From Oecophyllibacter saccharovorans (lineage in GTDB: Bacteria; Pseudomonadota; Alphaproteobacteria; Acetobacterales; Acetobacteraceae): a DNA stretch of 64,000 nucleotides. The translations under genes were made by a program, and so were the position numbers. Below the pieces are notes generated by a model that searched no databases, had not been told where the DNA came from, and worked only from the letters and a program-made list of their open reading frames with translations. The stretch spans positions 372,001 through 436,000 of the forward strand of contig NZ_CP038143.1 of NCBI RefSeq assembly GCF_006542375.1, read 5' to 3'. Below, one piece after another: positions 11,327 through 14,074 of this stretch (positions within the stretch are counted from its first letter, which is position 1; every line of letters begins with the position of its first letter).

Positions 11327-12442
11327 TCAGGAAACCTGACGCGCAGCATGGCTTTCCTGCCGCAACACATCGAGCTGGACCTGCTTGCCATCGCGTTCAA
11401 AATACCAGAACGTCCAGCCATTGCATGAAGGCGCACTGGTCAGCAACGCGCCCATCTTGTGGATGGAACCACGCTGCTTGCCGGCGACCAAAGTGCCATC
11501 AGGGGCCACGCAGGCCTTGAGTCGTCCCTGCCGGTCACTCAGGATCGTGCCGGCCGGAAGGGCGCCGTTCTCCACAAAGGTTCCGAAGGGAATACGCGGC
11601 TGCTCCCGACGCGCCGGGGTGACCGCCAGCTGATCGCTCGGCAGGCATTCCACCAGTGCCAGACGGGCCAAAGCCGCCCTGAAATAATCCGGATGTCGCT
11701 CGATCGCGATATAATGCCGCCCCAGCCGCTTAGCCACAGCAGGCGTCGTGCCTGTACCACAGAAAGGATCCAGCACGACGTCTTCAGCATTCGTTGAAGC
11801 CAGGATCACGCGGTGAAGGAGGCTTTCGGGCTTCTGGGTCGGATGCAGCTTAAGCCCGTGCTCGTTGCGCAGCCGTTCATGGCCCGTGCACAGGGGCAAG
11901 TACCAGTCGGAGCGCATCTGCAGGTCATCATTGAGCGCTTTCATGGCCTGATAGTTGAACCGGTGGCGGCTTTCAGGGCTCCGGGCAGCCCAGATCAGGG
12001 TTTCATGCGCATTGGTAAAGCGGCGCCCCCGGAAATTGGGCATGGGATTGGCCTTGCGCCAGACGATGTCATTAAGGATCCAGAAGCCGAGATCCTGCAG
12101 GATCGTTCCGAGGCGGAAAATGTTGTGGTAGGAGCCGATCACCCAGATCGTGCCGTCCTTGTGCAGCAGGCGCCGCGCCTCTGAGAGCCAGTCCCGGCAG
12201 AAGGAATCATAAGCCCCGTAATCGGAAAACTTGTCCCAGGCGTCATCGACCCCATCCACCACGCTCTCATCGGGACGGCGCAGTTCGCCACGGAGCTGGA
12301 GATTATAGGGAGGATCGGCAAAAATGCAGTCAATGCTCCCCTCCGGCAGGCCGCGCATGACCTCCACACATTCACCGTGCAGAATACGGTCGAGACGCAG
12401 CTCTGCGGGGAGTGGCGGGCAGGACTTGTGACGCGACGTCAT
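11327..12442 (-). CDS. ccrM: CcrM-type adenine-N6 DNA methyltransferase (GANTC)
   Basis: This 371-residue methyltransferase has DPPY at residues 43-46 and the SAM-binding DPFCGTGTT at 225-233, the order of a beta-class adenine methylase. RKANPMPNFRGRRF and a C-terminal domain of about 80 residues (GSIHKMGALL...CNGWTFW) are characteristic of CcrM. CcrM methylates the A of GANTC and times cell-cycle transcription in alphaproteobacteria. The start overlaps the rnhB stop by ATGA, so the two are co-translated. Three GANTC sites sit in front of the operon (13118-13143), which would allow the enzyme to act on its own promoter region. Confidence 0.95.
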   Translation of the reverse strand: MTSRHKSCPPLPAELRLDRILHGECVEVMRGLPEGSIDCIFADPPYNLQLRGELRRPDESVVDGVDDAWDKFSDYGAYDSFCRDWLSEARRLLHKDGTIWVIGSYHNIFRLGTILQDLGFWILNDIVWRKANPMPNFRGRRFTNAHETLIWAARSPESRHRFNYQAMKALNDDLQMRSDWYLPLCTGHERLRNEHGLKLHPTQKPESLLHRVILASTNAEDVVLDPFCGTGTTPAVAKRLGRHYIAIERHPDYFRAALARLALVECLPSDQLAVTPARREQPRIPFGTFVENGALPAGTILSDRQGRLKACVAPDGTLVAGKQRGSIHKMGALLTSAPSCNGWTFWYFERDGKQVQLDVLRQESHAARQVS

Positions 12443-13074
12443 GCAGCGGACTCCGGCTGGCTGAGCATGTGGCGGATGGGGGCAAAGGACCGGCGGTGAT
12501 GGCGGGTGAACCCATGATTCCGCAACCCGCCCAGATGCACCGCAGTACCGTAGCCCGCATTACGCTCCCATCCATAAGGCTGGTGCCGATGTGCCAGACG
12601 ACCCATCAACCGGTCTCGCAGGACCTTGGCGATGATGGAAGCGGCGGCAATGGAAAGACTGCGCCCATCACCCTCGATCACCATCTCCACCGGGCAGTCC
12701 AGGACAGGGGCGTGTTTGCCATCCACCAGGGCCAGATCGGGCAGGCGACCCAATTTCCCGGTCAGTTGAACAAGAGCACGTTGCATGGCCAGAAAGCAGG
12801 CCTGGCTGATATTCAGACGGTCAATCTCCGCTACCGAGGCTGCGCCTACCCCGAACTTCACTTCCCGCTCTTCCATCAGAGCTTCATAGGCGCGCTGGCG
12901 TTTGCGGGCAGTCAGCTTCTTTGAATCATCCAGCATGACTGCCAGTGTTGCAGCAGGCGGCGACAGAAAGACGACAGCACTCGCCACTACGGGACCTGCC
13001 AGGGGACCGCGGCCGACTTCGTCAATGCCGGCCACGTATCCGGAATGCTTCAGCTCTAAACTGTAATCCGGCAT
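12439..13074 (-). CDS. rnhB: ribonuclease HII
   Basis: This 211-residue enzyme cleaves the RNA strand of RNA-DNA hybrids and single ribonucleotides in DNA. GIDEVGRGPLAGP at residues 16-28 supplies the catalytic Asp17-Glu18 pair. Further conserved acidic residues lie in the LDDSKKL and VDGKHAP segments. The length is normal for the family. The ATG is at 13072-13074. It is the first gene of a two-gene unit with ccrM, an arrangement often seen in alphaproteobacteria. Confidence 0.97.
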   Translation of the reverse strand: MPDYSLELKHSGYVAGIDEVGRGPLAGPVVASAVVFLSPPAATLAVMLDDSKKLTARKRQRAYEALMEEREVKFGVGAASVAEIDRLNISQACFLAMQRALVQLTGKLGRLPDLALVDGKHAPVLDCPVEMVIEGDGRSLSIAAASIIAKVLRDRLMGRLAHRHQPYGWERNAGYGTAVHLGGLRNHGFTRHHRRSFAPIRHMLSQPESAA

Positions 13075-13117
13075 GACCGCTCCGCCCCCGACAGCCTCAC
13101 TCCTGTGAAACCCTTAA

Positions 13118-13143
13118 GAATCGGTTGTGAATCACTCCGACTC
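13118..13143. promoter_or_regulatory. cluster of three GANTC sites upstream of rnhB-ccrM
   Basis: GAATC at 13118, GAATC at 13129 and GACTC at 13139 lie 44-69 bases ahead of the rnhB start, with start-to-start distances of 11 and 10 bases. The downstream gene encodes the enzyme that should methylate this site. In Caulobacter the ccrM promoter region also carries GANTC sites whose methylation state affects expression; a similar feedback here is an inference. Confidence 0.55.
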
Positions 13144-13252
13144 GAAAGAAAAGGGCTGATGCCGTTTTTTTGTGCAGAAAATCTGTCCCGAACCGCGTCC
13201 GAACCCTGGAAAGACCTTGAGCTTCTTACCATGAAACGGGCTGGCAGGCCTT

Positions 13253-14074
13253 TTAAAGCTGCAGCGTGTCGCTGTCTCCGCTTTCCGGCTCATCTGATGT
13301 TGAAGGCTCGGCTGGGGCAGGAGAAGGAGAGATTTTCTCGCGGTTGCCGGAGTTCCCGCCTACCGTGCCGTCGGAATCAGGGGCACTGAACAGAGACGAA
13401 CCCGGCGCTGAATGATGGAACTTGCCAGCTACCAGCGTTTCCTCCAGCAGCTTGGAAAATTTCTGCTCGCTGGCGACGGCTACCAACAGCCTGAGCAGGA
13501 AAAAAAGACTGCAGCCAATCAGAAGATCGCTTCCCCTGCCGCCCAGGATGCGCCTGCGCACCCAGAAGTAGCCGGGCGCGCACAGAAACCACCAGAAGGA
13601 AGGGGGCCTGAACCCCGCCCGCTCCAGATAACGGCGGTCTGTAATGAAGGCTGTCAGCTGAATGGTCAGCACCAGCAGAAGAATTATGCTGCAGGTTGCA
13701 GGATCGGGCACACCGTGCAGATAGGTGTTGAAAGCCACGTAAAGGGGCAGGATTTCCTTTCCGAAAATGAAAATCCACCCCCACAGGGCGGGCACGGAAG
13801 CAGCCCGCACTGCTTCAGGGACCTGAGTGGCAGACAGGAGGTCAGATTTTGCCGCAGCTCTCTCCCGCTCCTGCAGGCGCGCGGAAGAAGCTGCCGACAA
13901 TGACCTCAGGGGCGCGATCAGCCCGGCACGTGCGGCGGGCCGCCACTGATCGCCGAAAGAAGGCGTCCAGACAAGGGTTTGAGGCTGGATACGGCGCTGC
14001 ACGATCAGACGCAGGAGCTCCCCCCGCGTTACGGGGCCGGCCGGCTGTCCGTTCTGTTCGTAAAACCACTCCAT
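13253..14074 (-). CDS. GYF_2-domain membrane protein
   Basis: This 273-residue protein begins with a GYF_2 (DUF4339) domain. It has WFYEQNGQPAGPVTRGEL in the first 20 residues and LVWTPSFGDQWRPA near residue 45. Four hydrophobic segments follow between about residues 90 and 210, so it is an inner-membrane protein with a cytoplasmic adaptor domain. The tail is rich in Ser, Pro, Glu and Asp. The ATG at 14074 is chosen because the GYF_2 domain starts there; the frame is open for 32 more codons upstream. GYF_2 domains bind proline-rich peptides; no partner is visible here. Confidence 0.8.
   Translation of the reverse strand: MEWFYEQNGQPAGPVTRGELLRLIVQRRIQPQTLVWTPSFGDQWRPAARAGLIAPLRSLSAASSARLQERERAAAKSDLLSATQVPEAVRAASVPALWGWIFIFGKEILPLYVAFNTYLHGVPDPATCSIILLLVLTIQLTAFITDRRYLERAGFRPPSFWWFLCAPGYFWVRRRILGGRGSDLLIGCSLFFLLRLLVAVASEQKFSKLLEETLVAGKFHHSAPGSSLFSAPDSDGTVGGNSGNREKISPSPAPAEPSTSDEPESGDSDTLQL

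Follow-up and report, generated by a model that had tools for sequence, protein, structure and literature searches.

Why would an operon that encodes a DNA methyltransferase carry, directly ahead of its first gene, several closely packed copies of the site that this enzyme methylates? In the window, the 64,000-nucleotide stretch of the Oecophyllibacter saccharovorans genome analyzed here, three GANTC sites lie just upstream of the rnhB-ccrM operon, which encodes the GANTC methyltransferase CcrM. The best explanation, judged from sequence comparison, is that they represent the local version of a GANTC-dense control region kept by acetic acid bacteria. We consider it probable that this array controls rnhB-ccrM in response to methylation, again probably via GcrA.

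GANTC density upstream of rnhB

The three sites (GAATC at 13118, GAATC at 13129, and GACTC at 13139) stand where the first-pass annotation had placed them, with start-to-start spacings of 11 and 10 bp. With the ATG of rnhB at 13074 on the minus strand, the distance given there, 44 to 69 bp upstream of the operon, is also correct. Read in the direction of the operon, the sites start 69, 59, and 48 bases 5' of the ATG. The intergenic region is 178 bp long (13075 to 13252); the next gene upstream, which has the same orientation, ends at 13253. As the sites lie within these 178 bp, a transcription start for rnhB nearly anywhere would leave them in its promoter or leader. A scan for the sigma-70 consensus gave no promoter and no terminator. 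Two more GANTC sites, at 12516 and 12923, lie within rnhB itself.

How surprising is such a cluster in a single genome? The annotation had assumed that GANTC occurs by chance about once in 256 bases; the real density in the window is 1 in 660 (97 sites, versus 269 in dinucleotide shuffles), and the motif is thus depleted. At the window density, the probability of at least three sites in the 178-bp region is 0.0027; in dinucleotide shuffles of the intergenic stretch itself it is 0.045, and that of a triple inside 26 bp is 0.0011. Across the 1.94-Mb genome, triples with spacers of 2 to 30 bp are not in excess (5 versus 5.7 expected), and only one triple with spacers of 4 to 6 bp occurs, the cluster ahead of rnhB (0.06 expected). 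This single-genome evidence is modest and only suggestive, and we judge the cluster to be real because it is conserved in relatives, beyond the statistics of one genome.

The comparison drew on 80 ccrM loci, a search of 200 genomes of the family, and 40 additional rnhB loci. GANTC was counted over the 150 bp that precede rnhB, in 87 nonidentical upstream regions of acetic acid bacteria and in a comparison set of 43 other Acetobacteraceae. The order rnhB-ccrM is maintained across the family wherever a stretch contained both genes. All 87 acetic acid bacteria have the cluster, with a mean of 4.34 sites (range, 2 to 7) where the local density predicts 0.25; within rnhB the value is 0.30 per 150 bp. 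The enrichment is specific for GANTC, as the 15 other palindromic pentamers have means of 0.07 to 1.34 in the same upstream regions. In the other Acetobacteraceae the mean is 0.81, and 24 of the 43 have no site. Among 75 loci of about 9 kb, the upstream region is the densest GANTC stretch in 74 and tied in the remaining one. The conservation in close relatives that the annotation had called for is therefore present.

Several genera have gained or hold extra sites at nonhomologous positions: at -134 in Gluconobacter, as part of TTGACTC in Bombella and Neokomagataea, as a fourth site (GACTC) in Asaia, and as a GACTC joined to TTGCGC in Acetobacter; the Acetobacter conturbans group has 6 or 7 sites per 150 bp. 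It is apparently the number of sites, more than a fixed geometry, that evolution has kept.

Could the cluster be a product of ordinary intergenic drift, in which AT-richer intergenic DNA and the known intergenic enrichment of GANTC account for it? At least three sites in 4.5% of local shuffles and the lack of an excess of loose triples genome-wide fit this explanation. However, a 17-fold enrichment at one locus over 87 genomes, absent for other pentamers and weak in the outgroups, does not, and drift is already strongly disfavored; it would call for comparable clusters ahead of many unrelated genes, which a search for tight triples in acetic acid bacterial genomes did not show. We regard drift as very improbable and a conserved, methylation-responsive control region as the better reading.

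As an observation in its own right, an Acidomonas-like genome (G037) contains 22 tight GANTC triples genome-wide, versus 3 to 10 in the other 11 acetic acid bacterial genomes searched.

The features of the locus are collected in Table 1. CcrM matches the crystallized Caulobacter enzyme (6pbd) with 484 bits across 349 residues; its best family is NF050803, but the match is under the family's cutoff (607.8 versus 830).

Table 1. Features of the rnhB-ccrM locus in window coordinates; sites are numbered and read in the direction of the operon
Feature	Position	Strand	Basis
GANTC site 1, GAGTC; context CGAGTCG, matches the GcrA-type motif YGAKTCK	13139..13143	-	sequence; GA and TC kept in all 24 genomes of the 10/11 group, N = G, C or A
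GANTC site 2, GATTC; context TGATTCA, matches YGAKTC, without the final K	13129..13133	-	sequence; intact in 24/24 (10/11 group)
GANTC site 3, GATTC; context CGATTCT, matches YGAKTCK	13118..13122	-	sequence; intact in 24/24 (10/11 group), N = T or C
Pyrimidine-rich block GCCCTTTTCTTTC, adjoining site 1 on its upstream side	13144..13156	-	alignment, pairing analysis
GGGACA, aligned with the TTGACA conserved in Gluconobacter; candidate degenerate -35 element	13184..13189	-	alignment
GGAG, probable Shine-Dalgarno sequence of rnhB	13080..13083	-	sequence
rnhB, ribonuclease HII (RNase HII), first gene of the operon	12439..13074	-	open reading frame list, family match
ccrM, GANTC adenine methyltransferase with C-terminal RAMA domain; 4-bp overlap with the end of rnhB	11327..12442	-	open reading frame list, family and structure match

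Site spacing and candidate readers

The annotation had further proposed that the sites lie on one face of the helix and are read cooperatively by a regulator. Support for this part of the proposal is partial, as the phasing holds for one branch: the 10/11-bp spacing is found in 24 of the 87 genomes, all on the Gluconobacter side (Gluconobacter, Saccharibacter, Acidomonas, Brytella, and the window genome), where sites 2 and 3 are homologous. In this group the GA and TC of all 72 sites are intact, and the middle base is changeable. It does not hold beyond, as start-to-start spacings are 16/18 in the main Acetobacter group, 9/11/17 in Asaia, and mostly 25/8/69/20 in Komagataeibacter. Helical phasing as a family-wide rule is ruled out by these values. 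Pooled over genera, the spacings lean toward multiples of 10.5 (R 0.32, nominal p 0.001), in a test whose genera share ancestry and are not independent. For the window genome, the sites may be read from the same face.

Phasing would be needed for paired binding if a SeqA-like protein bound the hemimethylated cluster and sequestered the promoter after replication. The spacing in the window genome and on the Gluconobacter side, like the lean of the pooled spacings, would suit such a protein, but the 16/18 spacing of the main Acetobacter group and the different spacings of the others would not. To our knowledge, no SeqA-like reader of GANTC has been described, and our own search for readers covered GcrA and MucR. 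We hold sequestration of this kind to be highly unlikely and favor control through GcrA.

GcrA is a sigma-70 cofactor that binds methylated GANTC. A GcrA family protein is encoded in all 24 genomes tested; that of the window genome matches PF07750 with 89.9 bits, and both of its domains match solved GcrA. The motif proposed for activation by GcrA in Caulobacter, YGAKTCK (PMC7987155), fits two of the three window sites. With genera weighted, 85% of the cluster sites fit YGAKTC and 54% fit YGAKTCK, versus 61% and 31% of all GANTC sites in the loci.

The architecture of the GcrA protein itself varies. In the window genome (L111, 1307454-1308251) a long low-complexity linker of Ala, Pro, and Lys joins the two domains, giving a frame of 292 codons versus 173 amino acids in the solved Caulobacter chain, and in several relatives each domain gives a separate match of its own.

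We hypothesize that CcrM methylates the GANTC sites in the promoter or leader of its own operon, that passage of the replication fork leaves them hemimethylated, and that hemimethylation alters the transcription of rnhB-ccrM. The supply of CcrM would thereby be tied both to replication and to the activity of CcrM. The reader would most likely be GcrA together with sigma-70 RNA polymerase. As for the sign of the effect, negative feedback, in which full methylation would lower expression, seems to have a slight edge over activation by methylated sites. For Caulobacter, PMC3973325 lists ccrM with the genes whose control by GANTC methylation is most probable.

Some observations weigh against control by methylation through GcrA. 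The spacing and position of the sites vary strongly among genera, and no single geometry of protein and site is kept. GcrA is also found in outgroup Acetobacteraceae that lack the cluster, so its presence does not predict the cluster. Brevundimonas GcrA has no preference for YGAKTCK (PMC7987155), and because of this the excess of YGAKTC and YGAKTCK in the cluster sites is supportive but not diagnostic of GcrA. In Acetobacter, the last two GANTC sites (sites 2 and 3) sit in the arms of a hairpin whose neighboring pairs covary (0.187 versus 0.113 in shuffled alignments, reached by 0 of 500), and this hairpin could account for some of the sites there without methylation.

A MucR-type or other repressor might instead bind over the GANTC sites and so hold them unmethylated during part of the cycle, and its competition with CcrM would then form an on/off methylation switch. 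The genome encodes two ROS_MUCR proteins (PF05443, both over the cutoff), and in Caulobacter and Sinorhizobium MucR shields GANTC in its target promoters and keeps it unmethylated, including in one promoter with four GANTC sites (PMC5172544). However, we identified no MucR sites at this locus, and the sites of the cluster are GC-flanked, cGANTCg being common. A repressor-based switch is thus an unlikely explanation, and we retain GcrA as the preferred reader.

The leader RNA and upstream elements

The pyrimidine-rich block just upstream of the cluster can, in many genera, base-pair with the ribosome-binding region of rnhB; in Komagataeibacter the complementarity also spans the start codon. At genus level, a block and its own Shine-Dalgarno region pair better than swapped partners (permutation p 0.0016). 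Komagataeibacter and Gluconacetobacter give the strongest signal; in the window genome it is weak (-24.5 versus -23.6 kcal/mol for swaps). This pairing and the Acetobacter hairpin suggest that, in the genera that have them, the cluster lies within a transcribed leader. Examples of the pairing among the relatives are loci L042, L051, L078, L024, and L057. A search of the rnhB leader against Rfam gave no matching family.

Might the GANTC sites then be nothing other than the arms of hairpins in the leader RNA, favored by the ability of GANTC to pair with itself, in a control at the RNA level that hides the ribosome-binding site of rnhB? The compensatory changes in the Acetobacter hairpin and the partner-specific complementarity in many genera argue for it. 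Yet all 16 palindromic pentamers could self-pair and only GANTC is enriched, pairing in the window genome is weak, no Rfam family matches, and covariation is lacking at the middle bases of the 10/11 group (C.U and C.C in Saccharibacter, A.C in Brytella). For this group, an origin of the sites in RNA hairpins alone is ruled out by those bases. Since they do not covary and the other self-pairing pentamers are not enriched, the pairing of the leader does not explain the enrichment of GANTC. RNA-level control is therefore a doubtful account of the array, which we continue to regard as a probable target of methylation-dependent control.

A further element was observed in Acetobacter (L041-L072). 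About 100 bp 5' of rnhB, these loci have a near-invariant CTTGCGC, with GACTC or GAGTC before it, flanked by inverted-repeat arms that change from locus to locus (CACCG/CGGTG, GACTCCGAG/CTCGGAGTC, TGCGACTC/GAGTCGCA). This could be a second hairpin's loop or, alternatively, an element of the -35 type. A strict assignment of the conserved TTGACA/TTGCGC element to -35 and -10 boxes, attempted on the alignments, is no more than tentative.

Inputs to ccrM and known systems

In Caulobacter, ccrM is activated by CtrA (PMC2877005), and the acetic acid bacteria differ from this arrangement in several ways. In the acetic acid bacteria examined, the 200 bp ahead of rnhB never contain a full CtrA site (TTAA-N6/7-TTAA), the form searched for. 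ChpT was not detected in any of the 12 acetic acid bacteria tested, but 7 of the 12 genomes tested elsewhere in the family have it. In 10 of the same 12 acetic acid bacteria, the CtrA orthologue has Glu in place of the phospho-acceptor Asp51 (Caulobacter numbering); one Acetobacter has His and another Asp. The Glu-bearing orthologues (L117 in the window genome, 1485147-1485812; L189, L191, L193, L194, L196-L199, and L202) have DNA-binding domains that are 56 to 64% identical, and CtrA of acetic acid bacteria is possibly a naturally phosphomimetic form. The query in this search was an approximate Caulobacter CtrA sequence; the identity of the match as CtrA is supported by its best family, NF045991, which it matches below the cutoff. 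An earlier comparison had reported that the CckA-ChpT-CtrA relay was lost to varying degrees in one group of Rhodospirillales that retained CcrM and GcrA (PMC2877005). The absence of full CtrA sites, the undetected ChpT, the Glu51 of CtrA, and the reported loss of the relay in Rhodospirillales make a different input to ccrM plausible in acetic acid bacteria, and we infer that the GANTC array may be this input.

More tentatively, ccrM may have moved from the CtrA phosphorelay, with ChpT lost and CtrA frozen with Glu, to a GANTC array in the rnhB-ccrM promoter or leader that reads its own state and that, in many genera, is coupled with an RNA leader able to hide the ribosome-binding site. On this speculative account, it would be the density of the array, and not its exact geometry, that is under selection.

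The literature searched contained no work on CcrM or GANTC among acetic acid bacteria; the nearest known systems come from other bacteria. The Dam/SeqA/GATC system of enterobacteria also has clustered methylation sites, and as there, the sites of the array are possibly read as a group. It differs in its enzyme and motif, and for GANTC we know of no such reader and see no spacing kept across relatives. The closest likeness to the ccrM promoter of Caulobacter crescentus (Stephens et al. 1995, via PMC3973325) lies in GANTC standing ahead of the gene for a GANTC methylase of the CcrM family, whereas acetic acid bacteria have a denser array (mean, 4.3 per 150 bp) and rnhB as the first gene. The locus resembles the methylated promoters that GcrA and CcrM control in Caulobacterales (Fioravanti 2013, PMC3667746; Haakonsen 2015, cited in PMC7987155) in having GcrA, CcrM, and GANTC near the presumed promoter, and two of its three sites fit YGAKTCK, a motif whose preference is not universal. 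Here, several sites are clustered, and the binding of GcrA is a prediction. A hypomethylated promoter protected by MucR (Ardissone 2016, PMC5172544) can likewise have several GANTC sites, and MucR homologues are encoded in the window genome, where hypomethylation and MucR binding would be hypothetical.

Does a maintenance methylase sense its own activity through its own promoter? In Caulobacter this is still described only as probable. Acetic acid bacteria offer three to seven conserved sites at one locus, compact genomes, and tractable species in Gluconobacter oxydans, Acetobacter pasteurianus, and Komagataeibacter, which make the question directly testable. The array also suggests how the timing of CcrM may work in bacteria in which the CtrA phosphorelay has decayed.
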